A stretch of DNA of 32,806 nucleotides, taken from contig MPMZ01000035.1 of the NCBI GenBank assembly GCA_002238765.1, forward strand, positions 1 to 32,806. The letters run 5' to 3'. Every line of letters begins with the position of its first letter. Position 1 is the first letter of the stretch. The notes under the pieces were generated by a model that saw nothing but the letters and a program-made list of their open reading frames with translations, searched no databases and was not told the origin of the DNA. The translations under genes were made by a program, and so were the position numbers. Below are positions 2,420 to 29,678 of the stretch, piece by piece. Source of the stretch: Nitrospira sp. bin75 (lineage in GTDB: Bacteria; Nitrospirota; Nitrospiria; Nitrospirales; UBA8639).

Positions 2420-2461
2420 CTGGTCGGGTTACGCTACCTCGATCTACGGTCTCCTCTCCTT

Positions 2462-2786: not shown

Positions 2787-2857
2787 TTCAACCGTTAGAG
2801 TAGGCAACTGCCAGGGAACGGTACCGCAAATACATTCTTCAGAAGGAGGGTTGCAGC

Positions 2858-3883: not shown

Positions 3884-3913
3884 GTCTTGGCTTTAGCCGT
3901 CAATCCCTTTCCC

Positions 3914-6208: not shown

Positions 6209-6217
6209 AGGGATTCC

Positions 6218-7852
6218 ATGCCTGCCAGGATCAAAAAATTTCTCGACTCGGGGGCGCTGTTCATCTGGTTTTGCGGTACGGCGGTGGCCGCCTCGCTGCT
6301 TATGGTCGGCGGCGTCCTTCTCCTGATCATGATCAACGGCCTCGGGTTTTTCTGGCCGCATGCCCTTGTGGAACTGACACTCAAGGACGGCACGCACGTG
6401 TTGGGAGAACTGAAAGGGGAAGAAGTCATCCCTTATTCGGAGACGCCGGAATTTCCCGAAGGGAAAACCCGTGTGAGGCTGAAAGTCGGCAATCGTGACC
6501 TCTATGGTCTGGACTTCAGGTGGGTGGATACCGATCAGATCGTCTCGGCGGAATCCCCGAAAGACGTGGCGGCGTTTGAACGGCGGGAATGGGGGAACTT
6601 TTATGGCCGGATTCGAGAGGTCTCACGCGGCGAAGGCGTGGTCGCCACGGGCAATCAGGAAGGCTGGAAGGCGTTACAGCCCCTGATCGAGCAGGCCAAT
6701 GACCTGCATGAGGAGATTGAACACCTGCAACGAGACGTCATCGGCGACATCAATTATGACATCGAAGAAACCCGTTTGAAAATCAGGGAGTTGGCATTAC
6801 ACGGTCAAGGTCAGGTCCCCGAGGTTGCGGAGCTTCAGGCCTCCACCGAACAATTGGAAACCCGATACCGGAAGCACGTGGAGACCCTTCGGACGTTGAG
6901 CCATCGACTCGACGAGTATTCCGTGGTTCTCGTCGAGACGAATGGCCGGGAGAAGCGCCTTGCGGTCGGCCAAATCGTGAAAGCCCTGCGTCCCAACGAC
7001 ATGGGCTTCGTCGAAAAGATTCTCCGATACTTCATGAATTTTTGGTCCGTGCTGAGCGAAGAACCGCGGGAAGCCAATACCGAAGGGGGCATTTTCCCGG
7101 CGATCTTTGGTACCGTCATGATGGTCTTGATCATGAGCGTGGCCGTGGTGCCGTTCGGCGTCCTGGCCGCATTCTACCTGCGGGAGTACGCGCGACAGGG
7201 GCTGATCGTTCGGGTGATTCGCATTGCCGTCAATAACCTGGCCGGCGTGCCGTCGATCGTGTTCGGCGTGTTCGGGTTGGGGTTCTTCGTGTACGCGGTC
7301 GGCGGGACCATCGATACCCTGTTCTATCCCGAAGCCTTGCCGACGCCGACGTTCGGCACGGGTGGCATTCTGTGGGCGTCGTTCACCCTGGCCCTCTTGA
7401 CGGTTCCGGTGGTGATCGTGTCCACGGAAGAAGGGCTTTCCGCCGTCCCCCGGGAATACCGTGAAGGATCCCTGGCGTTGGGCGCCACCAAGTTTGAAAG
7501 CATGCTTCGCGTGATTTTGCCCTGCGCCTTGCCGGGCATTTTGACGGGACTGATCCTGGCGGTGGCGCGCGCGACGGGCGAGGTGGCCCCCCTGATGTTA
7601 ACCGGGGTCGTCAAATTGGCGCCGGCGCTTCCCTTGGACCACCATTTCCCGTTTTTGCACTTTGAGCGCAAATTCATGCATTTGGGCTTCCATATCTTCG
7701 ACGTGGGCTTTCAGTCCCCGAACGTGGAAGCGGCGAAGCCGATGGTGTACGTCACCACCCTGATCCTGGTGATGGTGGTCATTGGTCTGAATCTCAGCGC
7801 CGTGGCCCTTCGCAATTACATGCAGAAAAAATTCAAGGCGTCGGCGGTGTAA
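6218..7852 (+). CDS. pstA: Phosphate ABC transporter permease PstA with periplasmic coiled-coil insertion
   Basis: Second Pst permease subunit, 544 residues against about 300 in E. coli. TM1 lies near residues 20-45 (VAASLLMVGGVLLLIMINGLG). It is followed by about 240 extra residues with a beta-rich part (LKDGTHVLGELKGEEV) and a strongly heptad-like helical part (LIEQANDLHEEIEHLQRD through LETRYRKHVETLRTLSHRL), probably a coiled coil. The transport domain resumes near GGIFPAIFGTVMMVLIMS, with coupling loop YREGSLALGATKFESML. Ribosome binding site AAAGGG precedes the ATG, 9 nt after the pstC stop. The insertion sits at the same topological point as the propeller in PstC, so the two extra domains may interact in the periplasm; that is inference. 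Confidence 0.92.
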   Translation: MPARIKKFLDSGALFIWFCGTAVAASLLMVGGVLLLIMINGLGFFWPHALVELTLKDGTHVLGELKGEEVIPYSETPEFPEGKTRVRLKVGNRDLYGLDFRWVDTDQIVSAESPKDVAAFERREWGNFYGRIREVSRGEGVVATGNQEGWKALQPLIEQANDLHEEIEHLQRDVIGDINYDIEETRLKIRELALHGQGQVPEVAELQASTEQLETRYRKHVETLRTLSHRLDEYSVVLVETNGREKRLAVGQIVKALRPNDMGFVEKILRYFMNFWSVLSEEPREANTEGGIFPAIFGTVMMVLIMSVAVVPFGVLAAFYLREYARQGLIVRVIRIAVNNLAGVPSIVFGVFGLGFFVYAVGGTIDTLFYPEALPTPTFGTGGILWASFTLALLTVPVVIVSTEEGLSAVPREYREGSLALGATKFESMLRVILPCALPGILTGLILAVARATGEVAPLMLTGVVKLAPALPLDHHFPFLHFERKFMHLGFHIFDVGFQSPNVEAAKPMVYVTTLILVMVVIGLNLSAVALRNYMQKKFKASAV

Positions 7853-7911
7853 ATTTCAACGGGTTTCAGTATCATGCATGCAGGGATTGACGCGTTATCA
7901 GAATCCCATCA

Positions 7912-7931
7912 GGCGGACACGCAGGTCCGCC
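7912..7931. repeat. Inverted repeat at the 5' end of the pstB frame
   Basis: GGCGGAC (7912-7918), a 6-nt loop, GTCCGCC (7925-7931). It lies in the upstream extension of the pstB reading frame, in the gap after pstA, and looks like a short intergenic palindrome that happens to be read through. Confidence 0.45.
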
Positions 7932-7966
7932 CCTACGCGACAAAAACGCAGACGGCGGAACCAACC

Positions 7967-8749
7967 ATGGCTTCTTCTGAACGTGCTCGAGACACCAACC
8001 CCAAAATCACGGTCGAGGATACCGACTTCTTTTACGGGGAGAAGCAGGCGCTGTTCAAAGTCGCCCTGACCGTCCCGACACATCAGGTCACGGCCTTTAT
8101 CGGTCCGTCGGGTTGTGGAAAATCGACGTTGTTGCGGTGTTTCAACCGGCTGAACGATCTGGTTGAAGGGGCCCGCATCACCGGAAAGATTTGTCTTGAC
8201 GGCAAGGACATTTATGCCCCGTCGGTGGACGTGACCGACCTGCGGACCAAGGTCGGCATGGTCTTCCAGAAAGTGAATCCGTTTCCCAAGTCGATTTACC
8301 AGAACGTGGTGTATGGGCCGCAGCTCCAGGGTGTCCGGCGTCGTTCCGTGCTCGACGGCATCGTTGAAAAGAGCCTGCAGGGCGCGGGCCTCTGGGAAGA
8401 AGTCAAAGATCGCCTGCATCACAGCGCGCTCAGCTTGTCCGGTGGGCAGCAACAACGCTTGTGTATAGCGCGGGCGTTGGCCGTCAACCCCGAAGTCTTG
8501 CTGATGGATGAACCTTGCTCGGCGCTTGATCCCATCTCGACCGCGAAGATCGAAGAGTTGTTGCATTCCTTGAAAGAGCAACTCACCGTGGTTATTGTCA
8601 CGCACAATATGCAACAGGCCGCGCGCATCTCCGACCTGACCGGCTTTTTTCTCATGGGGGAATTGATCGAATACGTCGAGACCAAGACCATCTTTACCAA
8701 TCCATCGGACAGCCGGACCGAAGATTACGTCACCGGGCGTTTCGGCTGA
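7967..8749 (+). CDS. pstB: Phosphate ABC transporter ATP-binding protein PstB
   Basis: Cytoplasmic ATPase of the Pst transporter. Walker [10 protein letters not shown] (residues 46-54), Q-loop at [11 protein letters not shown], signature LSGGQQQR, Walker [14 protein letters not shown] and switch His in [10 protein letters not shown]. The open frame begins at an ATG at 7874 (291 residues), but the extra 31 residues come from sequence containing an intergenic palindrome and lack any family resemblance. Starting at 7967 ([10 protein letters not shown]) gives 260 residues, the usual PstB length. Neither start has a clear ribosome binding site, so this choice is moderate. It sits between pstA and phoU. 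Confidence 0.93.
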
Positions 8750-8775
8750 TGGTTCGGGAGAGGAAATGAGAAGGC

Positions 8776-9444
8776 ATGGAACGTCACTTCGAAGAAGATT
8801 TTGACAAGATCAAAGGCAAAATTCTCACGATGGGCTCCCTGGTCGAGGACCAGATCAGGAATGCCCTGACCGCGTTGGTCGAACGTAACGAAGCCCTGGC
8901 GCAACGGGTCATCGAGAACGATCACCAGGTGAATACGTTCGACGTGGAAATCGACGAATTGGCGCTCGATGCGTTGGTCCGGTATCAGCCGGTCGCCAAG
9001 GATTTACGCTTTGTGACCACTGCCATGAAGATTTCCACTGAATTGGAGCGGATGAGCGACTTGGCGGAAAACATCTGCGAGCGGGCGATCGAACTCAACG
9101 AAGAGCCCCAGTTGAAGCCCTATATCGACATTCCTCACATGGCGGAGCGCGCCCGCATCATGGTCAAAGAATCGTTGGACTCCTTTGTCAAAATGGATTC
9201 GGCGCTGGCCCGGAAAGTCATTCAGGATGATGATTTCGTTGATAATCTGACGGAACAGTTGTTCCGGGAACTCCTGTCCTTCATGATGGAAAATCCCAAG
9301 ACGATCAGCCGGGCCATCCGGCTCTCCTTTATCGCCAAGTACATTGAACGGGTTGCCGACCATGCGACCAACGTCGCGGAACTGGTGGTGTACCTGGTCG
9401 AAGGCAAAATCATCCGCCATACCATCCCCCCGCAAGAAGCCTGA
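8776..9444 (+). CDS. phoU: Phosphate signalling protein PhoU
   Basis: Cytoplasmic all-helical protein that links Pst transporter state to PhoR and restrains uptake. 222 residues with the two PhoU repeats. The first carries the metal-site-type motif KISTELERMSDLAENICERA (about residues 85-105), the second FIAKYIERVADHATNVAE (about 187-205). GAGAAGG lies just before the ATG; the gene follows pstB by 26 nt. Last gene of the pst operon; the downstream 250 bp holds repeats only. Confidence 0.95.
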   Translation: MERHFEEDFDKIKGKILTMGSLVEDQIRNALTALVERNEALAQRVIENDHQVNTFDVEIDELALDALVRYQPVAKDLRFVTTAMKISTELERMSDLAENICERAIELNEEPQLKPYIDIPHMAERARIMVKESLDSFVKMDSALARKVIQDDDFVDNLTEQLFRELLSFMMENPKTISRAIRLSFIAKYIERVADHATNVAELVVYLVEGKIIRHTIPPQEA

Positions 9445-9469: not shown

Positions 9470-9660
9470 CTTCGACAAGCTTCCTTCGACTTCACTCCGT
9501 TACGCTCAGGACAGGCTCTCCCACCAGGGGAGAGGGGCATAGCGCCTCTTCTGTCATCCCTGTAAATGTTCAGTAATTCATTGACACTTTCCGCTGTCTC
9601 CTTCTGTGCCTCAGTTCCCCTCCTTTGTAAGGAGGGGCAAGGGGAGGTAGAAGCATTTGG
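9470..9660. repeat. Intergenic repeats downstream of phoU
   Basis: Positions 9470-9513 resemble the phoB-phoR palindrome (CCCTTCGAC and CGCTCAGGACAGGCTC). Positions 9515-9538 are a GC-rich run (TCCCACCAGGGGAGAGGGG). Positions 9617-9660 are a copy of repeat family 1 (CCCCTCCTTTGTAAGGAGGGG, then GGGGAGGTAGAAGCATTTG), nearly identical to 30-70. No gene is supported between 9445 and 9721. Confidence 0.65.
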
Positions 9661-10723: not shown

Positions 10724-12874
10724 CTACAAGGCGCCTGTGCCGCGGCTTTTCCAATTTTCCAGAAACCAGTCATGGGAATTGAGGGGGGCATGCTCGGGGA
10801 CGAGCTGGAGACGGGTATAATCCCCGTTCGACAGCAACTGACGGGCCTTGACGTTGTCGTGAAGAGCCACTTGCAGGAGGTCCTCGACCAGGACTTTCCG
10901 CAGGTGAGGAGACTCGATCGGGAACAGGAGTTCCACGCGCCGGTCCAGGTTGCGGGGCATGAGGTCGGCGCTGCCGAGAAAGAGTTCTTCCTGCCCGCCG
11001 TTGCGAAAATGATAGAGGCGCGCGTGTTCCAGGAATCGTCCGACGACCGAGGACACGGTGACGGTTTCGCTGATTCCGGGAATCCCCGGACGAAGTCCGC
11101 AGACCCCTCGAACCTGAAGGTCGATCTTGACGCCGGCTTGTGACGCCCGATAGAGCGCTTGAATGCATCGTGTGTCCACGAGGGCGTTCATCTTGAATGC
11201 GATGTACCCGTCCCCCGTTTCCTTGTGTTGTTGAATCTCCCGCTCGATCCGCTCCAGAATTTGCTCCCGCATCGATTGGGGCGCCACGAGCAGTTTGGCA
11301 TAGGAATTTTTTCGGGAGTAGCCGGTTAACGAGTTGAAGAGGTCGGCCACGTCCGCGCCCATGGCCGGGTCACAGGTAAAGAAACTGAGGTCGGTATACA
11401 TCCGGCTCGTCACCGGATTATAGTTGCCAGTGCCCAGGTGGACGTACCGCCGGATGCTGTCCTCGTCGCGCCGGATGACCAGGCACATCTTGGCGTGGGT
11501 TTTCAGCCCAAAGACCCCATAGACCACGTGGATGCCTTCATCTTCCAGTTTCCGGGCCCATTCGATGTTGTTTTCTTCATCGAATCGCGCCTTCAGTTCA
11601 AGCAGGACCGCGACCTGTTTCCCGTTCACTCTCGCTTCCATTAATGCCTCGACGATCGGGGAATTGGCTCCGACGCGATAGAGGGTCTGTTTGATGGCCA
11701 GCACGTTGGGATCGCTTGCCGCCTCACGCACGAAATCGACGACCGGGGTGAAACTGTCGTAGGGATGGTACAGCACGACGTCGCCACGCCTGATCACCGA
11801 GAACAGGCTTTCCTTCTTATTGAGGGAATCCGGGATCTCTGGAACGAACGGCGGATATTTCAATTCCGAGAGATCGATGCGCGTCAACTCCATGAGGCTG
11901 GACAGGCCGAGAGGAAGGTCCTGTGTGTAGACCTGGTAAGGAGCCAACGAGAGATTCCTGATCAGTATGTCCCGGATATGATCGGGCGTCGTCTGGTCGA
12001 TTTCCAGCCGGACCACCGAGCCGAAGTGACGGTTGTCCACCTGTTCTTCAATCGAAGCCAACAGGTCGTCCGCCTCGTCTTCCTCGATTTCGAAATCGGC
12101 GTCGCGCGTCACCCGAAAGAGGTAGGATGCGAGAATGGTGACCCCCGGGAACAGGAGGTCGAGATTGGCGGCGACCACGTCTTCGATCCAGACGAAGTTG
12201 TTGGCTCCCGAGTCGGGCAAACCGATTTGGTCCGCTTCGTTGACCATGTCTTCGCTGGGGATGCGGACGAGACGCGGAAAAATGTTGGGGATTTTGACGC
12301 GGGCGAAACATTCTCCGCGCTCGGGATCCTTCCCCACTACGGCTAAATTCAAACTCAAGGTGGAAATATGGGGGAAGGGATGGGAAGGGTCGAAGGCCAA
12401 GGGAGTGAGCGCCGGAAAGATTTCTTTGGAAAAATACCCGCGCAGTAAGTGTTGTTGTTTCGGTTGCAGTTGATGGTAGCGAAGCACGTACACGTCTTGG
12501 GCGTTGAGCTTTGGCAGGATATCGTTCCGCCAGCAGTCCGAAAAACGGGCCAGTTGACACAGGACTTCCTGCCGAACGGCCGCTAACTGTTCCGAGGTGG
12601 TCATGCCGTCCGGAGGACCTTCACGCACTCCACCGGACAATTGTTCTCTCAACCCCGAGATCCGGATCATGAAAAACTCATCCAGGTTGCTCGAAAAGAT
12701 CGACAGAAACTTCACCCGTTCCAACAGCGGGTTGCCGTGATCCTCCGCTTCCTCGAGCACGCGGGCGTTGAATTGGAGCCAACTGAACTCACGATTCAAA
12801 TACAGCTTGGGATCATCAAGGTCGGACGGAGAAGAATGGGCTGGGGATTTGGTTTCAGCGGAACTGATGTCCAT
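10724..12874 (-). CDS. ppk: Polyphosphate kinase Ppk1
   Basis: Polymerises the terminal phosphate of ATP into inorganic polyphosphate, reversibly. 716 residues, normal for PPK1. The N-terminal part begins LYLNREFSWLQFNARVLEEA; the middle domain contains FFMIRISGLREQL; the two phospholipase-D-like C-terminal domains carry the catalytic histidines, His460 in LKTHAKM (followed by RRYVHLGTGNYN) and His617 in FLEHARLYHF. It is on the same strand as the CYTH-CHAD gene upstream, separated by 206 bp of repeat sequence. The link to the Pst/PhoU block is storage of imported phosphate. No 11-bp-phased Pho motif was seen in its immediate upstream. Confidence 0.95.
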   Translation of the reverse strand: MDISSAETKSPAHSSPSDLDDPKLYLNREFSWLQFNARVLEEAEDHGNPLLERVKFLSIFSSNLDEFFMIRISGLREQLSGGVREGPPDGMTTSEQLAAVRQEVLCQLARFSDCWRNDILPKLNAQDVYVLRYHQLQPKQQHLLRGYFSKEIFPALTPLAFDPSHPFPHISTLSLNLAVVGKDPERGECFARVKIPNIFPRLVRIPSEDMVNEADQIGLPDSGANNFVWIEDVVAANLDLLFPGVTILASYLFRVTRDADFEIEEDEADDLLASIEEQVDNRHFGSVVRLEIDQTTPDHIRDILIRNLSLAPYQVYTQDLPLGLSSLMELTRIDLSELKYPPFVPEIPDSLNKKESLFSVIRRGDVVLYHPYDSFTPVVDFVREAASDPNVLAIKQTLYRVGANSPIVEALMEARVNGKQVAVLLELKARFDEENNIEWARKLEDEGIHVVYGVFGLKTHAKMCLVIRRDEDSIRRYVHLGTGNYNPVTSRMYTDLSFFTCDPAMGADVADLFNSLTGYSRKNSYAKLLVAPQSMREQILERIEREIQQHKETGDGYIAFKMNALVDTRCIQALYRASQAGVKIDLQVRGVCGLRPGIPGISETVTVSSVVGRFLEHARLYHFRNGGQEELFLGSADLMPRNLDRRVELLFPIESPHLRKVLVEDLLQVALHDNVKARQLLSNGDYTRLQLVPEHAPLNSHDWFLENWKSRGTGAL

Positions 12875-13080: not shown

Positions 13081-14529
13081 TCATTGGGCAAAGACCTCGC
13101 GGCCGCGCTTTTTGAGTTTCGCCCATTCTCGCGGGAAAATCGCTTTCGTCCGGCGTCGGCGAGCCCGCAGTCTCTCGACGATCTGTCCAATGGCGAACGC
13201 GGTCTTCACGCCTCGGGTCGTCAGGAGCAATTGCCGGAGTCGAGCCTCCGTGACGACGGCGTCCTGGTGCTCGCCCAGGATTTCCTGGTTTCGTTTGGTT
13301 TGGCGAACGAACCGTACGGCGGATTTCCCCATGGTTTCGAGGGCGAGTTCTGCGGCATATCGCGTGCGTTTGGTGCGGATTCTGAGTTGATGCAGTTCGT
13401 GATCCGAGGGCTCGGCAGTCCCGCGCTTGCCGGCCTTGACCAACTCTTTGAATGCTTGCGCAGCCCATTGTACCAAGGAACTCTCGGGTGCGTCACGCAA
13501 GGCCGGAGCTTGGACGGCTTGTTCAAGGCGGCCCAGGAGATCCAGATAGCGGTCACTGCGAAGGGCGTCGAGTAATTGCCCGCGGGCTTCAGAACGATGG
13601 GTTTCAAAATTGGTCAACAAGCGTTCGAAAATTTTTCGTTCGGCAGGAGGAAGGACGCGGGCTTCCGCATAAAGCTGCTCAAGTAGAACGTCCTGGTCCC
13701 GAACAGTGCCCAGCATCGCGCCAAGCCACTGGAGTTCTTCTTGCATGGACGCATACCATTCGGGTTCCATCAAGCCCCTTGCTGCCCGCAGGAGCGCTCG
13801 AAACCGTCTGATCCCCACGCGCATCTGGTGGAGTTCTTCAGGGTCTTTGCCGATTCGCGTTCCGGGGTCGTGCAGCAGGATGTCCCGGAGTTGTTTTTGC
13901 AGGATGGATTTGATGCGTTCCGGGAAGGGTGCTGATTCGGGAAGACAGGGATCCGAAAAATTCAGGTTTAAGGCTTGAAACACTTTCGGGCGGGAATCTC
14001 CGTCGGATGCGCCTGCTTCACGCAGGGCGGTCACGATTGCAGCGAGTTCTTTTTCCTTGCCTGAGCGGAGTGCTACTTCAATCTCGCTCAGATGACCCAC
14101 CACTCGACGGGCGCTGAAAATCCTGACGCGGTCGATGACCACGTCGGCGATGGGTCTGTCCAAAGGTTGAATCCTGATGCCGGAACGACGTATCTGGAGT
14201 TTCGCAATGGCCGTCAACAGTTCACGTCGTAACAGGCCGAACAGGAGTTCCTCCAGCGCTGCCGGCGGGGTCGAGCGACCGGAAGCCATCTCCACTTCCA
14301 ACCGGGCTGGCGGTCTCGGAAGTTTCAGTTGCCATAAGACGTGTTTCTGTTCGGTCCTGCGACTGAGTGTGACCCCAAGCCGGGCCAGCCTGAAATCAAC
14401 GGTATCGAAGTAGGTGGAGGTAAACAGCCGAGGAGGAAGCGGCTCACCCGGAAAATGGGGCAGGCGAAACGTGTGCCCCGTCTTGAGCTTGACTTCCCGC
14501 TCCAGCATTTGCCGTACAACGCAGTTCAT
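13081..14529 (-). CDS. CYTH-CHAD domain protein (polyphosphate-associated)
   Basis: 482 residues. The N-terminal CYTH domain (about 8-200) has the ExExK signature in LEREVKLK and alternating basic and acidic strands (LWQLKLPR, RLEVEM, VVIDRVRIF, SEIEVALRSG) typical of triphosphate-tunnel enzymes that hydrolyse or bind triphosphate and polyphosphate. The C-terminal CHAD domain (about 225-480) is helical and His/Arg-rich, with LHQMRVGIRRFRALLRAARG and its repeat ELHQLRIRTKRTRYAAELAL. CHAD domains are known to bind polyphosphate and locate to granules. Its position next to ppk supports that role. Start taken at 14529; an internal ATG (residue 8, 14508) would put the signature at the very N terminus and is also plausible. 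It lies 83 bp after the TPR gene and may belong to the same transcript. Confidence 0.9.
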   Translation of the reverse strand: MNCVVRQMLEREVKLKTGHTFRLPHFPGEPLPPRLFTSTYFDTVDFRLARLGVTLSRRTEQKHVLWQLKLPRPPARLEVEMASGRSTPPAALEELLFGLLRRELLTAIAKLQIRRSGIRIQPLDRPIADVVIDRVRIFSARRVVGHLSEIEVALRSGKEKELAAIVTALREAGASDGDSRPKVFQALNLNFSDPCLPESAPFPERIKSILQKQLRDILLHDPGTRIGKDPEELHQMRVGIRRFRALLRAARGLMEPEWYASMQEELQWLGAMLGTVRDQDVLLEQLYAEARVLPPAERKIFERLLTNFETHRSEARGQLLDALRSDRYLDLLGRLEQAVQAPALRDAPESSLVQWAAQAFKELVKAGKRGTAEPSDHELHQLRIRTKRTRYAAELALETMGKSAVRFVRQTKRNQEILGEHQDAVVTEARLRQLLLTTRGVKTAFAIGQIVERLRARRRRTKAIFPREWAKLKKRGREVFAQ

Positions 14530-14612: not shown

Positions 14613-15344
14613 TTACTTGCGATTTTGAAGCTCATCCAGGAGCCGTTGCGCTTCGGGCCGAAATCGTCTTTCCCAGGCATAAGGGTAATGCGGGTTCCGG
14701 GCCTGAATGACGGCGAGTAGTTGAGCTCGGGACCCATCGAGCTTTCCCTCCTTGATGAACAGCTTGGCCAGGATGATCCGAGCGTTGGTAAACTTGCCGT
14801 CCGCCTCGATGGCCCGGCGAAGATAGTCTTTGGCCAGTTTCGCGTTGCCGCCGAGATACCAGGGCAATTCGGCCAACAAGCCTCCTTTCATTTGTAACGA
14901 TGGAGCGTGGTGCGGGTCGAGTTCAATGGCACGGTCCACGTGTTTTATGATGTCCGAGAGATTGACGGCCCCGGACGTGATGCCTCGCAATTGCGTGGCG
15001 CTCCCCAGGTTCGCGGCGTAGAGGAAATGCGTTTCGGCATCATCCGGGTGAAGCGTCATGGCTTGGGTGGCGGCTTTCAGTCCTTTGTCATACGCTTCAA
15101 TTTTTTCTGATGTGTCGGTGAACAGATCATCTGCCATGTTCAGGTACGCGTGCGACAACAGCTTCCAGAGTTGAGGATTCTTGAGATCCTCGATCAAGGC
15201 TGCGGTGAAGTCGTCTCGTTGTTGGCGAAGGGACTCGGGATACCCTTCCGGAATGGAAAACTTTTGACTCCACGACGGGAGATGACACGAAAAGATGAGC
15301 AGGAGACAGAGAAGACAGGTGCCCGGAAACGCGGGGTGTCTCAC
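14613..15344 (-). CDS. Exported TPR-repeat protein, possible lipoprotein
   Basis: Last gene of the four-gene operon. I set the start at a GTG at 15344, whose GTG overlaps the upstream TGA as GTGA; a longer frame exists to 15461 but runs deep into the Lgt-like gene. The product (243 residues) then begins with a signal peptide (PGTCLLCLLLIFSCHLPSWSQ). IFSC at residues 17-20 is a weak lipobox with an unusual Phe at -2; signal peptidase I cleavage after SWS is the alternative. The rest is tetratricopeptide-like: LWKLLSHAYLNMAD, GLKAATQAMTLHPDDAETHFLYA, HVDRAIELDPHHAPSLQMKGGLLAE, YLRRAIEADGKFTNARIILAKL. Probably a periplasmic or membrane-anchored scaffold for the other operon products; partner unknown. 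Confidence 0.75.
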   Translation of the reverse strand: MRHPAFPGTCLLCLLLIFSCHLPSWSQKFSIPEGYPESLRQQRDDFTAALIEDLKNPQLWKLLSHAYLNMADDLFTDTSEKIEAYDKGLKAATQAMTLHPDDAETHFLYAANLGSATQLRGITSGAVNLSDIIKHVDRAIELDPHHAPSLQMKGGLLAELPWYLGGNAKLAKDYLRRAIEADGKFTNARIILAKLFIKEGKLDGSRAQLLAVIQARNPHYPYAWERRFRPEAQRLLDELQNRK

Positions 15345-16432
15345 AGATGCTCTTTGTGAACAAAGAAGGACAGCACGGAGCCCGTCATGCGGCTTCTTCC
15401 CATAAAAAGGAAGATGCCGATCCAGGCGCTTTGAAGAAAGAGCAGCACCGTCGGGTCCCACAGAGAGTGAAGCCCCACGAGAAGGTCTGGAAAAGCAAGC
15501 GGGAAAGAGGGCACAACCATCATGACGGCGATCATGTAACCTATTCCCACGACGGACATCACCTGGTACATGGAAATCGATCCTTGTCCCCGGTGATCCG
15601 CGCGCCAGGTTTCCGAGACGGCACGCCAGGCTTGCGTGATCATCAAGGAGACCAAAAGACTTGCTGCAAAGCGTCCGGTCAGGAACAATCCCATGCCGAT
15701 CAGGTAGCCCGTCGTGGAAATGACGGCCGTGATGGCCTGAATGGGGACCACCGGAACGGATTCGAGGTTTCCGGCGTATGCAATTTTCTTGGTCGCACCC
15801 GTAAAGCGGCAGTGCAGGGTCTTGAATAATGTTCGTACGACCGGTGAGCAGGCGGAAAGCGGCTTCCCGTAGCAGCAGCCGTAGCTGATGCAGGCCAGTC
15901 TTCCGATGCCTTCGCCAAGGGCGAAGGAGACGACGAGCGCCGAGAGTGCCGGAAGAATCGGGAGCACGTCAGGCTGGGGATTCATCTCATTGATCGCGAC
16001 GGCCACCACCGGCGCCATGACGAGGCCCGTGAAGGAAGCTCCCCCGATCGTGAAGGTAAACGCTTTTTTTTCGACGACTTTGGCGATGATTTTGGAAGCA
16101 GGAACCGCCAGGCTCATGAGAGAGAGGACGAACAGCAGGGAGATCGAAAGCCGAACGTGGAGTGCTCCCAGGAGAAACAGCATATTCCCGGCGGCAAACG
16201 TGACTGCACTGGCCGTGATGAACCCATAGTAGGTCAGGTTCAGCCCGTGCCATCGCTTCGAGTCGGCCCGGTGCCGTGGGAGCACGGCCATGATTTGCCA
16301 CTGTTCTTGGGGGAGGATGGCAAAGGCCCACCGAAAGAGAAGAAAGAAGCCGAGGGTGACGGTTCCCAGGAATAGGAAAGGCACCCCTCCAAGGTTCTCC
16401 ATCCAGATGTAAGGCAAATCCGAAATACTCAT
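15341..16432 (-). CDS. Lgt-family (prolipoprotein diacylglyceryl transferase-like) membrane protein
   Basis: 363-residue polytopic protein, third gene of the operon; its ATG overlaps the previous stop as ATGA. It has Lgt-like landmarks in the right order: GGASFTGLVMAPVVA (about 130-145), GIGRLACISYGCCYGKPL (about 175-192, corresponding to the GRIGNF / GCCYG region with the phosphatidylglycerol-contacting Arg), VPIQAITA (about 229, corresponding to the HPTQLYE region) and GQGSISMYQVMSV (about 282-294, corresponding to RGLSMGQ). The essential His of the SFHGG motif (His103 in E. coli Lgt) is Thr here. Some nine hydrophobic segments are visible. Together with the phosphatidylserine-decarboxylase-like neighbour this suggests a lipid-transfer enzyme acting on another acceptor, rather than the housekeeping Lgt. 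Family assignment is by motif only. Confidence 0.7.
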   Translation of the reverse strand: MSISDLPYIWMENLGGVPFLFLGTVTLGFFLLFRWAFAILPQEQWQIMAVLPRHRADSKRWHGLNLTYYGFITASAVTFAAGNMLFLLGALHVRLSISLLFVLSLMSLAVPASKIIAKVVEKKAFTFTIGGASFTGLVMAPVVAVAINEMNPQPDVLPILPALSALVVSFALGEGIGRLACISYGCCYGKPLSACSPVVRTLFKTLHCRFTGATKKIAYAGNLESVPVVPIQAITAVISTTGYLIGMGLFLTGRFAASLLVSLMITQAWRAVSETWRADHRGQGSISMYQVMSVVGIGYMIAVMMVVPSFPLAFPDLLVGLHSLWDPTVLLFLQSAWIGIFLFMGRSRMTGSVLSFFVHKEHL

Positions 16433-17505
16433 GACACGTGAGTCTCCATATCGCGCATGGAGGGCAGAGCTTGCCCGATGGTCGAGCGAACTTTGACCGC
16501 CGTCTCGACGGCCGGACGACCAAAGCCCAACGAATACCGACTGATGGCGTCTCGTCGCCGTTGGTTCAGGCGCAAGTCCTGGCAAAAGTCGACCCGTCCG
16601 CGTTGCAACAGAAGCACATTCGTGGAACTGCCTGGTCGATACAGGCTTTTCGGCTGCCCTTTTTTGACGAAAAGACCTTTTTCCATTTTCTGCGGGTTGT
16701 CGTAAAAGTGTTCGCTGTAGCATTGATCGATCGCGCCGATCATGAGGGCCACGATTTCAATCATGGTGACGAGGCCGGCCTGCGTCCCGCCTGGAACGTC
16801 CGTATCGATCACGGTGACGACCCGCTTATTTTTCGAATAGGGTGTGACCACCGAAATAATCGGACCCGGGTTGCAGCTATGATAGGTGCCGTCCACTTCA
16901 TAATAGTCCACGACCACACCGGAGACCGGTGAGTGGTTGTAATGATATTCGTCGGGTGTCAGGCGAAAGATGGCAAAATCTCCGTCTTGAAACGTCTGAT
17001 GCCACAACGCCTTTTCTTGACCCAACAATTCATACACGTCGAAAAATTTCCCCTTCAAGAACAGTTGAGAACTGGTCTGCAAGGACCCGAGAAGCACCTT
17101 CGAATCCGCAGGCGAAACGAGAATGGAAGCCGCGGAGTCCATGGGGCGACGTTCCCAATATCGGATCTTGCGTTCAAACACTTTACGTGGAGAATCGAAC
17201 GTCGCAAGACTGTCCACGCATTCCGAGAGATTGATGCCCAACTTTCGACAGAACGACGAAACCCCTGAAGACGCAGGGCCGAAGGTGACGTCATAATTCC
17301 AAAGGCCGACCAGATAAGAGATTGACGATGAGGTAAGCGCCTTAAACAGGGTCGGAGCCTTTTCCCTGACGGCCGAGTAGAGATAGTTGACGACCCGGTC
17401 CCCGTACAGTTGCTCGCTTTGCACACTGGCGGTTTCGCGATCAATATATTGATGCAGGCTTGAACTAATCAATTTCGGATTCATGATCGCCGGCATGTTG
17501 CTCAT
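16429..17505 (-). CDS. Phosphatidylserine decarboxylase family protein
   Basis: 358 residues, second gene of the operon. Landmarks of the pyruvoyl-dependent PSD family are in order: KVFERKIRYWERRP (FF-R-type motif), VSPADSKVL with Asp134, FLKGKFFDVYELLG, LTPDEYHYNHSPVSG with His188 and His191, and RPGSSTNVLLLQ (292-300) where self-cleavage between Gly292 and Ser293 would create the pyruvoyl group. Asp, His and Ser of the self-processing triad are therefore all present. No N-terminal membrane helix is obvious. Start at 17505 overlaps the upstream gene by 41 nt; an ATG at 17484 (MNPKLISS) would give a 20-nt overlap, and neither has a good ribosome binding site, so translational coupling is likely. 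It may make phosphatidylethanolamine or decarboxylate a related serine lipid; which one cannot be told from sequence. Confidence 0.8.
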   Translation of the reverse strand: MSNMPAIMNPKLISSSLHQYIDRETASVQSEQLYGDRVVNYLYSAVREKAPTLFKALTSSSISYLVGLWNYDVTFGPASSGVSSFCRKLGINLSECVDSLATFDSPRKVFERKIRYWERRPMDSAASILVSPADSKVLLGSLQTSSQLFLKGKFFDVYELLGQEKALWHQTFQDGDFAIFRLTPDEYHYNHSPVSGVVVDYYEVDGTYHSCNPGPIISVVTPYSKNKRVVTVIDTDVPGGTQAGLVTMIEIVALMIGAIDQCYSEHFYDNPQKMEKGLFVKKGQPKSLYRPGSSTNVLLLQRGRVDFCQDLRLNQRRRDAISRYSLGFGRPAVETAVKVRSTIGQALPSMRDMETHVS

Positions 17506-19909
17506 CGACCAGTAAGGTGATCAACACCAGATAAATCAATTTCGTGAGTTGAGGGAGGGAGATCGTTTCGTCGATCAGTACGGGCTTTGTGCGTTCCAGA
17601 AAGGATCCCGCGGACGTGGAAGGCCCCAGGATGGTTTGCATGAGGGCTTTGCTCGTGTGAAGGGTTGAGCCCGTACAGTCATCCAGGGCGGCGCAATCAA
17701 CTTCCAATTCCTGAATCGCTTCGCTGAGGTGTCGTTGTCGAAGCGTGTGACGATAGTAGGTTTCAGCGGCTGTGTTGTACTCCTCTCCTGAAAGACTGAA
17801 GGGGGAGGTTGCCCCACTTTCCTGCAGTATGCCTTTCGTCAGCTTCCCGAACGTCGAGCAATCATCAGGGTTTTCGAGCCGGTCTTTGAGTTTGTCCATG
17901 ACGTCGTGCAGTTGAAAGGCTTCAATGAGGTCCGGGCCGTCCTCCCGGAGAATCGTCAAGAGGGTTCGGCCATATTCCCGATAATGGACCCGATAATATG
18001 AGGAAAATCGTCGACTCAGCCGCACTTTCGGCGTTCGGGCCAGGATGCGTTTCAGAAACCAGTTCGACGTGTCGGCACGGACGTAGAAGGTGGGGAGATT
18101 GACGGCCGCCCCGAAAAAGATCTGTCGCCGTTCACTTTCCGTGGCGGGGTCGTCGGAAATGTCGGAAGGCTGCACGTCAAATTGGAAGATATATTTGAAC
18201 GCCAACGCGGTGACCAAAGCCTGAAGACTGGCGGCTTCTCCCATGTCGTCGAGGAGGCTTTCGAACAAACTATAGTACCGGCCCTCGAATCCGGAAAATC
18301 CCATTGTGGAAAACGTTCGGAGTTTATAAAGCTGATAAAAGGACATTCGTTCGTCATAGATGCCCTGTTCGGCCAGGTCTCGTTTGAGCCGAAGGTCGTT
18401 CCCAAGCGTGCCGTCGAGGGCAGGACATTCTTCCGTGCTCGGCAGGACGACCAGATAATCGATGAGCCGGAAATCGGGGATATAATCCCCTCGCATCCCA
18501 AACCCGTAGCTCAACGCCTTGTCCAACCACACCGGTCCCAGTGGCGTGACGGGTTTCCCGAAGAACCGCAAGCCGGCCTTTCGCTTCCACCGCTGCCAGA
18601 GTAAACGCAGAAATTGGTGATCCAATTCATGGGGGAGAAAGCCCAACACGTTTTCCGGATGAAAGTCCCAGAAGTCCAAACGATACGGAGCGGCGCTGTA
18701 GGTTCCGACGAATAACGGAAGGAAATGCTCGGCGACTTTCGTCACGAGATCCCCGAAATATTTTTCATCGCGGGGTGTAAATTCGTCGGGCATGGTTCGG
18801 GAAAGCTGTGTCAATTTTCGGCTTCCCAAGCTGATGTGGGTGCCGTTATTTGCCAGGCTGATGTTAGAGGGGCTGGTCGGGACGACCAGATTGCGTGTAA
18901 TGATTCCGGCATTTTTGAGCTTTCCAATCACGTGCTGGTGACTTCGTGACAACACCTCATGGCAGAGTCGCATATACTCGTGCTTGTCTGGCCCGTTGTC
19001 CCATCCCGACAAACAGGGGTTCATGAAGAGTTCCCGATAAAAGTTGTCGGAAATGAGACCGTTGAGACGTTTTTGACGGATTGGCGGATGCGGCGCAAAA
19101 TACATCAGGGCCCGTTGGCCCGTTTCGAGCAACGCGAACTTCCGGTTGGCGTACGTGGTCAGTAAATGACTGAGAAAGAATCGTTTGCTCGCTTCCTTCC
19201 CGACTGTACGTCCCATCTTGGTATCCTGATGAAGGTTCATGATATAGAAGCTGCACGTTTCCGGAGACGTGTTGTCATTCAGAAAGTGATCCATAAGGCG
19301 TTCGCCGATGCGACGAATGGCGGAAGGGGCCTTGCCGCTTATGACGTCGGCCAATGCGAGGCGCGAGAGGTAACTGATTGGAACGCGGACCCACTCTTCC
19401 CCATCCTGATAAAACACCACCTTCCTGATGTCTCGTCTCGGCGGGCCGGCAAGGTCTTTTTTATCGGCCAGGAGATCATGTTGAAGCACCTGTCTGGCAA
19501 ACGGACCGAGCGTCCGCCTCGGAAACCGGACCCAACTGTTTTCCCATACGTCGTTGGATTCGTGAGCCAAATAAGCCTCGAGTTCGGATTTGCTGCGTTT
19601 GGAATGGCCCCTCGCTTTCGCGAAGGGAGCCCCTTTGCGCCAGGTTTGTTTGACCAGGTTCTTGTAAAAATTGGACGTTTGCAGGGTAATGGGTAGGTCG
19701 ACGTGTTTCGTCGTGCCCAATACCGCGGTTTGGTATTCGTTTTCCGAGCCCGCTGTCACGTCGTCCGGTGCGAAGGGGAGACTGCAGAGGTTCAAATTTG
19801 ATGAGCGCCCGCCGGCACCGAGTACGTCGGCCAGACGTTCGACCCTTTGTTGGTGATCAGAAGAAAACGTTTGAACGGTTGAGGATGGTGATTCGGTTTT
19901 TATCAGCAT
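17465..19909 (-). CDS. Large conserved-looking protein of unknown function, first gene of a Pho-box operon
   Basis: 814 residues; AGAGG lies 5 nt before the ATG. I do not recognise the family. It looks soluble: no signal peptide and no clear membrane helix except a short hydrophobic run near the C terminus (LIYLVLITLLV). The middle region has dense motifs that look catalytic or structural: FYIMNLHQDTKMGRTVGKE, TSPSNISLANNGTHISLGSR, YSAAPYRLDFWDFHPENVLG, FLPHELDHQFLRLLWQRW and GFGMRGDYIPDFRLIDYLV. HELDH formally matches the HExxH metal site, but that can arise by chance. The C-terminal third is helix-rich. A candidate Pho box lies 90 bp upstream, and the gene is translationally coupled to the PSD-like gene. 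The role may be synthesis or attachment of a lipid head group; this is inference from neighbours only. Confidence 0.8.
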   Translation of the reverse strand: MLIKTESPSSTVQTFSSDHQQRVERLADVLGAGGRSSNLNLCSLPFAPDDVTAGSENEYQTAVLGTTKHVDLPITLQTSNFYKNLVKQTWRKGAPFAKARGHSKRSKSELEAYLAHESNDVWENSWVRFPRRTLGPFARQVLQHDLLADKKDLAGPPRRDIRKVVFYQDGEEWVRVPISYLSRLALADVISGKAPSAIRRIGERLMDHFLNDNTSPETCSFYIMNLHQDTKMGRTVGKEASKRFFLSHLLTTYANRKFALLETGQRALMYFAPHPPIRQKRLNGLISDNFYRELFMNPCLSGWDNGPDKHEYMRLCHEVLSRSHQHVIGKLKNAGIITRNLVVPTSPSNISLANNGTHISLGSRKLTQLSRTMPDEFTPRDEKYFGDLVTKVAEHFLPLFVGTYSAAPYRLDFWDFHPENVLGFLPHELDHQFLRLLWQRWKRKAGLRFFGKPVTPLGPVWLDKALSYGFGMRGDYIPDFRLIDYLVVLPSTEECPALDGTLGNDLRLKRDLAEQGIYDERMSFYQLYKLRTFSTMGFSGFEGRYYSLFESLLDDMGEAASLQALVTALAFKYIFQFDVQPSDISDDPATESERRQIFFGAAVNLPTFYVRADTSNWFLKRILARTPKVRLSRRFSSYYRVHYREYGRTLLTILREDGPDLIEAFQLHDVMDKLKDRLENPDDCSTFGKLTKGILQESGATSPFSLSGEEYNTAAETYYRHTLRQRHLSEAIQELEVDCAALDDCTGSTLHTSKALMQTILGPSTSAGSFLERTKPVLIDETISLPQLTKLIYLVLITLLVDEQHAGDHESEID

Positions 19910-19999
19910 CGTTGCCTCTTCGTCGCCCGTTTAGCCTGTTCGGCAGGACGGGCGCGTGCTTTTTTGGGACGTATTTTTACGCGGTTTCCCGGGGCGACT

Positions 20000-20038
20000 T
20001 GTTATCTGAGGGTTACATTGCCGCAGCCCCGGTGTTAA
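20000..20038 (-). promoter_or_regulatory. Candidate Pho box upstream of the four-gene minus-strand operon
   Basis: On the minus strand, hexamers at 11-bp spacing: TTAACA (20038-20033), GCTGCG (20027-20022, degenerate), GTAACC (20016-20011) and ATAACA (20005-20000). TTAACA and GTAACC are identical to the first two units of the pstS box. The last unit ends 90 bp before the ATG at 19909. The box lies in the divergent gap with the inositol-monophosphatase-like gene, so effects on that gene are also possible. Confidence 0.6.
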
Positions 20039-21066: not shown

Positions 21067-22632
21067 ATGTCGAAGATCGCCGTAATAGACATTGGCACCA
21101 ATTCCATTCACATGGTGTTGGCGGAAGCCGAACCTGATGGCTCCTATAAAATTCTTGACCGGTTCAAGGACATGACCCGTCTGGGTGACGGGACGTTTCG
21201 CCAGCGGCGTTTGTCCTCCGAGTCGCGGGCGCGAGGCGTTGAAGTCCTGAAAAACCTGACGATGTTGGCACGAAACAAAGGGTTTGATCGCATTCTGATG
21301 GCGGCGACCAGCGCGGTTCGTGAAGCGCGCAACAGTGGCCAATTTGTCGAGGAAGTGTCCGAGAGCACGGGTGTTCGCGTCAAGGTCATCACGGGTCAGG
21401 AAGAAGCCCGCCTCATTTACCTGGGTGTTCGCCAAAGCATGGATTTGACGGACCAACCGACTCTGCTGGTGGACGTGGGCGGAGGCTCGGTCGAAATTAT
21501 CGCGGGGAATCGAAAGCGTCTGCTACACGCCGAGAGTCTCAAACTCGGGGCCATTCGCCTGAAAGATCTGTTCTTGACCAAAGCGCCGCCTCCGAAGGCC
21601 AAACTGCGGGCCATGCACGACATGATCGCCAAAGAACTGGAAGCCGCCTTGGAGCGATTTTGTCAGCCTGAGTTCGATCGAATCGTGATCTCTTCCGGCA
21701 TGGCGTCGAACCTGGCGGAAATCATTTATCTGGAACGGACCGGTGCCCCCATTCCCCAGATCAATCTTTCGACCATTACCCTGAAAGAAATCCGTGCCGT
21801 CGAGCAACGGCTCGCGACGAGCGACGCGGACACGCGGCTCGGCATCCCGGGTCTGGATCCGCGACGGGTGGATACGCTGCTGGCGGCGACGTCGGTGATT
21901 CGCCAAACTCTCGAAGCCATCGGGCATAAGGAAGCCACGGTCAGCGACAAAGCCATGCGTGAAGGCCTAGTGTACGATTTTATCCAAAAGAACCAGGAAG
22001 GCTTGCTGATCGAGCAGGAAATTCCGAATATTCGATTGCGGAACGTCGTGGCCTTGGCCAGACGCTGTCATTACCCCGAGACGCATTCCCGTCACGTGGC
22101 GACGTTGGCCTTGTCGCTGTTTGATCAACTGCAATCCCTGCATGGCATGGCTGAGGAGGAACGCGAGTGTCTGGAATATGCCGCGTTGCTCCACGACGTG
22201 GGGTATGCCATCAACCCGCGCCAACACCATAAGCACAGTTATTATCTCATTACGAACAGCGATCTGGCCGGATTTACGGTCGATGAAATCGAGATGATCG
22301 CCAACGTGGCCCGTTATCATCGCCGCTCGTTACCTGGCCCCCAACACCTGCCGTATAAACTCCTTTCACTGGCCGGGCGAAAGGTGCTGGAGACGCTCAG
22401 CGCGATTTTACGCATTGCGGATGGCTTGGATCGCAGTCACTTTTCCATCATCCGGGACGTCCACGTCACCATCGGAAGAAAAATGAACATCGAGTTGAAG
22501 GCGCTGGCCGACTCGGAGTTGGAAATCTGGACTGCGCAATCGCGAGCAGATCTATTCCAGAAAGTCTTCGGACGAGAGGTCACGTTCACCGTTCAGGTGG
22601 AGCCCAGGCTTTCGACAAACGCGGCGGAATGA
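21067..22632 (+). CDS. ppx: Exopolyphosphatase / GppA family phosphatase with C-terminal HD domain
   Basis: Hydrolyses terminal phosphates of polyphosphate or the 5' phosphate of pppGpp. 521 residues. The actin-like Ppx/GppA domain (1-310) shows AVIDIGTNSIHMVLAE, ATSAVREARN, GQEEARLIYLGV and LLVDVGGGSVEIIAG. The C-terminal HD-type domain (about 330-510) shows HSRHVATLALSLFDQL, AALLHDVGYAINPRQHHKHSYYLI and VARYHRR. The extra domain is usual for longer Ppx proteins. Two readings remain, Ppx or GppA; nearby ppk and CYTH-CHAD favour polyphosphate. Divergent gap to the previous gene contains a weak Pho-box-like site. Confidence 0.92.
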   Translation: MSKIAVIDIGTNSIHMVLAEAEPDGSYKILDRFKDMTRLGDGTFRQRRLSSESRARGVEVLKNLTMLARNKGFDRILMAATSAVREARNSGQFVEEVSESTGVRVKVITGQEEARLIYLGVRQSMDLTDQPTLLVDVGGGSVEIIAGNRKRLLHAESLKLGAIRLKDLFLTKAPPPKAKLRAMHDMIAKELEAALERFCQPEFDRIVISSGMASNLAEIIYLERTGAPIPQINLSTITLKEIRAVEQRLATSDADTRLGIPGLDPRRVDTLLAATSVIRQTLEAIGHKEATVSDKAMREGLVYDFIQKNQEGLLIEQEIPNIRLRNVVALARRCHYPETHSRHVATLALSLFDQLQSLHGMAEEERECLEYAALLHDVGYAINPRQHHKHSYYLITNSDLAGFTVDEIEMIANVARYHRRSLPGPQHLPYKLLSLAGRKVLETLSAILRIADGLDRSHFSIIRDVHVTIGRKMNIELKALADSELEIWTAQSRADLFQKVFGREVTFTVQVEPRLSTNAAE

Positions 22633-24564: not shown

Positions 24565-24730
24565 AGGCCCCCTTTCTGACCGTGGATGGCCTAGCGTATC
24601 CGCGCAATGTAAAGAGAAGGTTTCCGTGACGTTAGGGTCAAGTAAATAAATGCCGAAATCGCCGGAATGCCCCGCGCAAACGGGGAACTTCGTCTTGACG
24701 GTATGCTAGAATGGGTCTCCGCTCCTTACT

Positions 24731-26572: not shown

Positions 26573-28021
26573 TCAGAAGGACACGTCCCACTGGAGACGG
26601 ACGCGTTGTTCCGTCCACGCTGGCAAGTTGGGGTTTGGTTGCTCAAGTGTCAGGTGCGAAGCGTCGAGCGTCAGCTTGTTGCGGTGCCCGGCAAAGAACC
26701 AATTGAGGCCCGTGGTAAATTCCTGGCGGAGGTCTCCGCCGGCATCCACGTTCGGATCGACGTGTGAATACCGGAAGGCGATTTCCAATGGCTTGGGAAC
26801 GGCCGAAATCAAATAGTGCGGGAAATAGCCTGTCTGCAAATAGCCACCGAACATGTTTCTTTCTTGATCCGGATCTCCTGCCGCCGCTTCAGTATCCTTG
26901 ATCTGTTTCCAATGCGTTTCATGCTGCCAGGACCACCCACGATACTTCATGGCCGATCCGACCTGCATGCCGCTGACCTGGTATTGGCCGTCGGTGGTGG
27001 CCCTGTCAAAGCCGCTCACCTGTCCGCAGCCGCTGGACGACCATCTCGTGCACCGACCCTTCACCGTGTACGCGCCGTACGAGATACTGGCCGTGGGTTT
27101 CTTGTGGTATTTGACGTCGCTCTGCCGCCATTTGAGCTCGCGACCGAACACGTTCCACTGGATGCGTCCCATGTACATCATGTTATCGTCATCGTTGATC
27201 GTCGCACGACCGGACCCGGAATAGATCCCGAGGTAATAGTTCGTATCCAGGATCGTGCCGGGGTTCACGCGGCCGTACAACATCATCCCCACTTGCCGGT
27301 CAATGGTAAACACCCGGTTCATGATGGACCGTTCCACCATGGTCTGTTTGCCTGAGGAGTCGACCCGCTCTCTGCTGTAATTGATTTTCCATTGGCCGAT
27401 CCGCAATTTGAGCCACTTGTATTTTTCCAGCATGATGCGCCAATCGATCAGCCTGGTCCTGTCGCCGCAGCAGCTATATGAGGTATTCGTGGGTTGCCAG
27501 TCCACCTCGAAGTAATATTTGATCCAAGGCTTGTACCCGTGCCCGCCGACCTTCATCCGGACCCGCCGCAACTCGAAGGTACTTTCTTCGTTGTCAGAGA
27601 ACGCGCTTGCATTGCGCGGGTCTGACCGTTCGGGATAGGTGTACCGGCCCTGAAACCGCCATTGGATCTTGGTTTTGAACAACCCGTCTCTGGTGGCCAG
27701 GGTAAACCCTTTTTTCCCGAAGCCGACTTTGACCCCGGAATCTTTCTTTTTGGATGGTTCCGACGTTTTCGCGACTGCCGGCGTCTCCTCTCCGTAGCCG
27801 GCTTCGATCTGGGGTGTCTTTCTGGAGTGTGTCGCGGCTCTTGCGGCTTCCCGTTTCTTTTCTTCGGCTTTGATCTGAGTCAAATCATCCTTTGTGATGA
27901 TGCCTTTTTCCAGCAAAATCTCCAGGAGTAAGTTCCCCTCTATTGCCGTTGCCGGCGACGGCATGAGGGTCATCATGACAAACAGTGCCATCATTCCAAG
28001 GATCGCTCGCTGAACACTCAT
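26573..28021 (-). CDS. Phosphate-selective porin O/P-like outer-membrane protein
   Basis: 482 residues. GGGGAGA lies 7 nt before the ATG at 28021 (a longer frame to 28057 exists). Signal peptide MSVQRAILGMMALFVMM...SPATA, then a short helical segment (LLLEILLEKGIITKDDLTQIKAEEKKRE), a charged linker, and a barrel with alternating aromatic strands (KIQWRFQGRYTYP, TFELRRVRMKVGGHGYKPWI, LKLRIGQWKINYSRERV, SWQHETHWKQIKD, LEIAFRYSHVDPN). It ends in Phe (VRLQWDVSF), the usual outer-membrane insertion signal. The layout fits the OprO/OprP family. A candidate Pho box with four phased units lies 94 bp upstream, which fits an outer-membrane route for phosphate or polyphosphate. Substrate selectivity is inferred. 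Confidence 0.85.
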   Translation of the reverse strand: MSVQRAILGMMALFVMMTLMPSPATAIEGNLLLEILLEKGIITKDDLTQIKAEEKKREAARAATHSRKTPQIEAGYGEETPAVAKTSEPSKKKDSGVKVGFGKKGFTLATRDGLFKTKIQWRFQGRYTYPERSDPRNASAFSDNEESTFELRRVRMKVGGHGYKPWIKYYFEVDWQPTNTSYSCCGDRTRLIDWRIMLEKYKWLKLRIGQWKINYSRERVDSSGKQTMVERSIMNRVFTIDRQVGMMLYGRVNPGTILDTNYYLGIYSGSGRATINDDDNMMYMGRIQWNVFGRELKWRQSDVKYHKKPTASISYGAYTVKGRCTRWSSSGCGQVSGFDRATTDGQYQVSGMQVGSAMKYRGWSWQHETHWKQIKDTEAAAGDPDQERNMFGGYLQTGYFPHYLISAVPKPLEIAFRYSHVDPNVDAGGDLRQEFTTGLNWFFAGHRNKLTLDASHLTLEQPNPNLPAWTEQRVRLQWDVSF

Positions 28022-28114
28022 AAAGAAATCTCCCCTCTCAAAAATGGTCAATGGCATGGAAATATCGATTTGCGTTTGATGAAAATTCGTGCTGGAGCAG
28101 TTTTAAAATTTTTT

Positions 28115-28153
28115 CGTTACGGTGGCGTTACAGAGGGTTCAACGAGCCGTAAA
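28115..28153 (-). promoter_or_regulatory. Candidate Pho box upstream of the porin gene
   Basis: On the minus strand, four hexamers at exactly 11-bp spacing: TTTACG (28153-28148), TTGAAC (28142-28137), GTAACG (28131-28126) and GTAACG (28120-28115). TTTACG also occurs in the pstS box. An AT-rich stretch with TTTTAA around 28101-28108 could be the -10. The box ends 93 bp before the ATG. Confidence 0.65.
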
Positions 28154-29311: not shown

Positions 29312-29678
29312 TACCTCCAGTTGGGTAACCTACTTTGCGCATACGGCTCCTTCTGTCATTGATGAGGCCTTGGCTGAAGGCCGGGTGTACCTTCCCCCCA
29401 TTGTTGCTGCGGAATTGCTCAGCGGGAAGATGAGTGCACGGCAGCGTGCGCAATTAGAATCCTTTCTCCTTGACCTTCCTCTTTGCACGCATGATTTGGA
29501 GCACTGGATGCGCGTGGGACGATTGCGGGCGCACTTGTTTTTGAAGGGGATCAGCGTTTCGACACCTGATGCCCACATTGCTCAATGCGCGCTTGATTTG
29601 AAAGCCGAGCTGCTGAGTGAAGATCACGTCTTTTTCAAGATCGCTCAAAAGACCGCTCTTCGATTGTTACTGGTTTGA
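29292..29678 (+). CDS. VapC toxin (PIN-domain ribonuclease), pair 2
   Basis: 128 residues from a GTG at 29292. PIN landmarks: Asp in ALVVDTSSWVTYF, Glu in LPPIVAAELLSGK, Asp in ISVSTPDAHIAQCAL and the late acidic LLSEDHVFFKIA. Its end overlaps the 3' end of the DUF3422 gene on the other strand by 12 nt. Confidence 0.88.
   Translation: MSALVVDTSSWVTYFAHTAPSVIDEALAEGRVYLPPIVAAELLSGKMSARQRAQLESFLLDLPLCTHDLEHWMRVGRLRAHLFLKGISVSTPDAHIAQCALDLKAELLSEDHVFFKIAQKTALRLLLV

Follow-up and report, generated by a model that had tools for sequence, protein, structure and literature searches.

A phosphate-linked gene cassette of Nitrospirota and Desulfobacterota combines a predicted ligase of a new family with two enzymes from lipid-acting families

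In many oxygen-poor waters, phosphorus-free lipids form a large share of all lipid, and knowledge of the organisms that make them and of the genes involved is only partial (PMC5193443). When phosphate limits Desulfovibrio alaskensis, such lipids replace more than 90% of its phospholipids, and OlsF makes one of them, ornithine lipid (PMC5193443). Here we describe a four-gene operon in contig MPMZ01000035.1 of Nitrospira sp. bin75 (assembly GCA_002238765.1), whose analysed stretch of 32,806 nucleotides (nt) we call the window; the source genome (Nitrospirota, Nitrospirales) spans 3.04 Mb and is 97.8% complete. The operon encodes an 814-amino-acid (aa) protein, a protein resembling phosphatidylserine decarboxylase (PSD-like), a protein resembling the diacylglyceryl transferase Lgt (Lgt-like) and a protein with tetratricopeptide repeats (TPR). 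It is a real, previously undescribed enzyme system linked to phosphate, and its first gene appears to encode a ligase of a new family; no description of the ligase/PSD-like/Lgt-like combination was found in the open-licence literature.

The original prediction, made from the letters of the window, had proposed that these four overlapping genes form a phosphate-starvation system containing two enzymes from lipid-acting families. The overlaps are real and lie where first stated, all four genes are on the minus strand, and Pfam agrees with the family labels: PF02666 for the PSD-like protein (E 4e-34), PF01790 for the Lgt-like protein (E 2e-9) and TPR families for the last. The system is also conserved, and its tie to phosphate recurs in several independent lineages.

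The conserved core and its enzymes

The 814-aa protein has no sequence match in Pfam, NCBIfam, PDB or PADLOC, and its 58 aligned relatives have no consistent match in Pfam, NCBIfam or PDB either. It had been left as a large unknown, with structure prediction suggested as a check, and that check gives a carboxylate-amine ligase fold. The AlphaFold (AF2) model built from the 58-sequence alignment (mean pLDDT 89.8, pTM 0.92) matches, by VIA Z score, Escherichia coli GshA (16.6), YbdK (15.5), PafA (14.3) and Dop (14.1), and more weakly yeast glutamate-cysteine ligase (10.0) and type III glutamine synthetase (6.9), with the next unrelated chain at 3.0. Foldseek places the same families on top, with probabilities of 0.97-1.00 for the top GCS matches and weak E values (0.002-0.03). 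An earlier model from 7 sequences was poor (pLDDT 45.9) and was discarded.

Comparison of the family alignment with GshA or YbdK by hhalign reached no full-length significance and gave two short matches at the expected motif sites, so that superfamily membership rests on the fold together with the motifs. Iyer and colleagues described the latter as GhExE in core strand 1, [HD]x[NH] in strand 4 and Ex[RK]x2D in strand 6 (PMC2588565). The first is found as G54-x-E56-x-E58 in every sequence covering the region, with the hydrophobic position relaxed to S/T/C/V, and an acidic residue at 123 matches the superfamily's acidic residue on a following strand. Strand 4 carries an invariant His358, with HxS in place of HxN/H (second position Ser/Thr), while strand 6 carries invariant E542 and R544, the final Asp being replaced by an invariant Ser547; H358 and E542/R544 were placed on these strands from motif order and the strands of the model, not from a residue-level structural alignment.

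Given the GCS/YbdK/PafA fold, the GxExE and ExR motifs and the active-site His, we read the 814-aa protein as a predicted ATP-dependent carboxylate-amine ligase of a new, undescribed family; it falls in no family with an unrelated known role. Characterised enzymes of the superfamily typically act on glutamate, activating its gamma-carboxylate, which by analogy may also be the substrate here. A defence role was considered and dropped, as no matches were found.

The PSD-like protein aligns with E. coli Psd (hhalign, 98.7%), and its Asp134, His188, His191 and Ser294, which are invariant in 59/59 sequences, fall on the PAD, DYHRVH and LGST motifs of that enzyme. It keeps the catalytic Asp/His and the self-cleaving Ser, source of the pyruvoyl group, of phosphatidylserine decarboxylase.

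The Lgt-like protein is an integral membrane protein in which Arg178, Arg270, Glu274 and Arg277, equivalent to Arg143, Arg239, Glu243 and Arg246 of Lgt, are invariant in 56 sequences, as are Cys181, Cys186 and Cys187; Gly189 (Gly154 of Lgt) is also kept. In E. coli Lgt, the mutations tried at R143, R239, E243 and R246 were not tolerated, and R143 and R239 form a pocket that activates the diacylglyceryl C3-O bond of phosphatidylglycerol (PMC4728403). Judged by these residues, the donor site looks retained and the remainder altered: there is no His at the HGG position (His103 of Lgt), the residues matching Asn146 and Glu151 are both Cys, and the signature GRxGNFxNGExxG is missing, GRLACISFGCCYG standing in its place. 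The score against the curated Lgt equivalog is 23 bits, with the cut-off at 334. Since the HGG histidine and the signature are absent, we call the protein Lgt-like and not Lgt.

The distribution of these genes was followed in samples of 396 Nitrospirota and 395 Desulfobacterota genomes, with strict peptide patterns used in a wider contig scan. The ligase occurs in 20 of the former, including one remnant (G023), and in 44 of the latter, the phylum of Desulfosarcina widdelii, or about 1 in 9 once two fragment matches are excluded; D. widdelii itself, a cultured species, has the core at L035. Ligase, PSD-like and Lgt-like genes follow one another in that order on one strand in 59/59 loci uncut by contig ends, across the two phyla, at times with one to three inserted genes. 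An independent search for the Lgt-like family found it in 45/395 Desulfobacterota genomes, 44 of which also hold the ligase; the 45th (G530) has the Lgt-like gene and a PSD-like gene truncated by the end of its contig. Furthermore, the pairwise distance matrices of the three core proteins correlate (r 0.83-0.88). No fusions of core genes were found; the longer open reading frames (ORFs) of L119 and L129 seem to arise from read-through in a different frame. Ordinary Psd and Lgt are also present in all genomes checked (15/15 and 16/16, respectively), so the operon represents an additional pathway.

Co-conservation had been proposed for all four genes; it holds for the three-gene core and not for the TPR gene, which is confined to loci of the Nitrospirota families f1 and f3 and missing from the f29 and Desulfobacterota loci. 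The TPR gene is a lineage-specific accessory outside the conserved core. Its secreted product weakly resembles TatT and BstC, which is a lead only, and might carry the pathway product in some Nitrospirota.

Several loci contain damaged copies. In G023 (L015, 6886-8088), a decayed operon retains an N-terminal ligase fragment of 116 aa, its upstream repeat and a broken TPR gene; neither a PSD-like nor an Lgt-like gene is present, and the genome has a canonical PSD alone. This remnant shows that the whole system was lost recently. Sequencing error or early decay could account for an in-frame TAG stop in the Lgt-like gene of G006 (L011, 9613-10620), for ligase genes split across frames in L036 and L068 and for a truncated TPR gene in L012.

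Phosphate genes around the core

The link between the core and phosphate is strong. In at least 17 of 61 carrier genomes, phoU and the ligase gene are no more than 20 kb apart, where about 0.94 such genomes would be expected, and after relatives are merged at 60-80% identity the same holds for at least 15-16 of 37-47 lineages (about 0.9 expected). Neighbours vary by genome and include pst and phoU genes, ppk and CYTH/CHAD; a PHO4 phosphate transporter adjoins the cluster in six f3 loci. OlsF-type proteins, taken as an acyltransferase plus Acetyltransf_5 (a domain pair confirmed in L116), occur within 20 kb of the core in 5 of the 12 genomes with strong PF13444 matches, compared with 0.17 expected. 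The original prediction had held that known routes to phosphorus-free lipids are absent here: this stands for OlsB/OlsF in the window's genome, where PF13444 has no match, nor has it one in the genus mates searched, but other carriers of the operon do have OlsF.

The Pho box claimed upstream of the operon is a phosphate-type direct repeat, though not one of the E. coli type. The best upstream site for the latter (CTGTCAT-N4-CTGTCAT) scores 7.0 bits on a position weight matrix (PWM) and ranks 30 in the window, whereas E. coli Pho sites score 12-25 bits. The 11-bp repeat that is present, TWAC-N7-TWAC, has 8 matches in the window against 0.58 expected from shuffles, and these include two sites upstream of pstS, one of which is a triple, as well as sites upstream of both the operon and the porin gene. 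Upstream of the ligase gene it is kept in relatives although the flanks have diverged. Across all carriers it precedes the ligase gene in 10/63 cases versus 23/427 controls, a moderate enrichment that we do not take as general. The repeat is a putative Pho box of this lineage, to which PhoB may bind. Two other matches lie just downstream of phoU (9562-9576) and in a stretch without an identified gene (24631-24645).

Features of the operon and its surroundings in the window
Feature	Positions	Strand	Details
phoB, phoR, pstS-C-A-B, phoU	256-9444		PhoB-type regulator at 256-951
Triple 11-bp repeat upstream of pstS	2749-2774	plus	positive control
Polyphosphate kinase gene	10724-12874		
CYTH/CHAD protein gene	13081-14529		
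Four-gene operon	14613-19909	minus	
TPR gene	14613-15344	minus	243 aa, signal peptide; Pfam TPR families
Lgt-like gene	15341-16432	minus	363 aa; PF01790 (LGT)
PSD-like gene	16429-17505	minus	358 aa; PF02666 (PS_Dcarbxylase)
Predicted ligase gene, first of the operon	17465-19909	minus	814 aa
11-bp direct repeat upstream of the ligase gene	20001-20015	minus (operon's orientation)	TAACCCTCAGATAAC; TWAC-N7-TWAC
Inositol-monophosphatase-type gene			listed between operon and exopolyphosphatase
Exopolyphosphatase gene	21067-22632		
Phosphate-selective porin gene	26573-28057		PF07396
11-bp repeat upstream of porin gene	28115-28136	minus	

Within the operon, the ligase and PSD-like genes share a 41-nt overlap. 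The mechanical ORF of the Lgt-like gene begins at 16723, and the start at 16432 is preferred on the basis of an ATGA overlap and the relatives; the TPR gene starts with GTG at 15344, within a GTGA overlap. Beyond the porin gene, a DUF3422 protein of unknown function (29667-31109) is encoded, and one also occurs near the operon in L012. Other neighbours recur elsewhere: a large protein with a PHP-like start and a GT4 glycosyltransferase end lies near the core in five loci (cluster c24; L103:2011-4461, L035:6870-9368 and others), a DUF2062-type membrane protein is encoded downstream of the Lgt-like gene in a few, and in Desulfobacterota a small DksA/TraR-type zinc-finger protein is encoded between the PSD-like and Lgt-like genes or after them (cluster c29; L114, L116, L117, L106).

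A candidate lipid pathway and its alternatives

The product of the core is likely a lipid, and plausibly one that lacks phosphorus. We propose, with confidence about evenly balanced against doubt, that the core is a phosphate-responsive module that places an amide-containing, amino-acid-derived head group on diacylglycerol, most likely yielding a phosphate-free lipid. The Lgt-like protein would move the diacylglyceryl group of phosphatidylglycerol onto an amino-acid-type acceptor, at a thiol or hydroxyl, and release glycerol phosphate. The acceptor's alpha-carboxylate would be removed by the PSD-like enzyme, so that a head resembling serine or cysteine becomes one resembling ethanolamine or cysteamine, and the GCS-fold ligase would then use ATP to form an amide between this amine and a carboxylate (most often, in known members, the gamma-carboxylate of a glutamate). 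Decarboxylation by a pyruvoyl enzyme requires a free alpha-amine, so the amino acid would have to be attached through its side chain at the PSD-like step, as serine is in phosphatidylserine. Side-chain attachment in turn suggests the order Lgt-like linkage, decarboxylation and then formation of the amide on the amine by the ligase. The substrates, the lack of phosphorus in the product and this succession of steps are all inferred, and the steps could run in another order. A more specific version is tentative and on balance doubtful: a new lipid class, with diacylglycerol thioether- or ether-linked to a decarboxylated amino acid bearing a glutamyl amide, that would replace phospholipids in phosphate-short Nitrospirota and sulfate reducers.

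Support for the broader proposal, held with a middling degree of confidence, comes from the ligase's fold and motifs, from the catalytic residues that the PSD-like enzyme keeps and from the arginines retained at the donor site of the Lgt-like protein. The co-conservation of the three genes, the separate canonical Psd and Lgt, the tie to phosphate genes, the placement near OlsF in some carriers and the upstream repeat also speak for it. Several points weigh against it. E. coli Lgt acts on exported substrates and has a head domain in the periplasm; the ligase requires ATP and so is presumably cytoplasmic, and the core contains nothing for the transport step that this would call for. In most carriers the core has no phosphate genes next to it, and only in the window's own family is the upstream repeat convincing. 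OlsF also occurs in several carriers, so the product does not simply stand in for ornithine lipid, and the product itself is deduced from the genes. Finally, the Lgt-like reaction may not be diacylglyceryl transfer at all, because His103, Asn146 and Glu151 are lost and E151A/Q inactivates E. coli Lgt (PMC4728403).

Alternatively, the core may modify phospholipids and leave their phosphate in place, with the PSD-like enzyme making a phosphatidyl amine, the ligase adding an acyl or glutamyl group (as in N-glutamyl-phosphatidylethanolamine-type products) and the Lgt-like protein rearranging the diacylglyceryl group. The PSD-like protein is indeed closest to true PSDs, with all catalytic residues kept, and the natural substrate of that family is phosphatidylserine or a relative. 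We nevertheless consider this unlikely: it leaves the repeated proximity to phoU/pst and OlsF unexplained, and a true PSD already exists in each genome checked.

The presence of PafA and Dop among the closest folds (Z ~14) raises a second alternative, Pup-like tagging, in which diacylglycerol would be attached to a small peptide or protein tag: the ligase would couple a lysine or amine with a glutamyl group and the Lgt-like protein would anchor it in the membrane, in keeping with the protein cysteine that is the known Lgt acceptor. Such tagging seems improbable, as the clustered neighbours of the core, which cover ORFs of 90 aa or more, include no small conserved one, and a PSD-type decarboxylase would have no clear role in it. 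A soluble gamma-glutamyl thiol or amine for storage or redox use, with the Lgt-like protein serving some other function such as metal binding by its three invariant cysteines, would suit the closest folds (GshA and YbdK) and the replacement of Lgt-specific residues by cysteines, but the strict association of the core with two families of lipid enzymes, together with its enrichment near OlsF, makes it improbable as well.

Significance and comparison with known systems

Carriers of the cassette are found among Nitrospirota, the phylum to which nitrite oxidisers belong, and make up about one-ninth of the sampled Desulfobacterota; its first enzyme lies outside the families of Pfam and NCBIfam. If a membrane lipid is made, as the proposed diacylglycerol-based pathway holds, the core would supply a gene marker and a head-group chemistry uniting a gamma-glutamyl-type ligase with lipid enzymes, and the proposal would be directly testable in cultured Desulfosarcina.

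Remodelling by OlsBA/OlsF, BtaAB and Agt shares a phosphate-linked context with the core, which lies near OlsF in some genomes. To our knowledge, none of these pathways uses a GCS-fold ligase, PSD or Lgt. With GshA/GCS1, YbdK/GCS2 and PafA/Dop, the ligase shares the fold (Z 14-17), the GxExE motif, the acidic residue, the active-site His and ExR; it differs in lacking family-level sequence similarity, in its gene context and in its HxS and Ser motif deviations, and it is about 450 residues longer than YbdK. The PSD-like protein belongs to the same Pfam family as Psd and has the same Asp, His and Ser residues for catalysis and self-cleavage, but is a paralogue with a longer N-terminal part that is always encoded near the ligase gene, whereas the ordinary Psd of the same genomes is short. 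The Lgt-like protein differs from Lgt in the loss of His103, in the change of Asn146 and Glu151 to Cys and in a score far under the equivalog cut-off, yet the two belong to the same Pfam family over their full length and have in common the equivalents of Arg143, Gly154, Arg239, Glu243 and Arg246.

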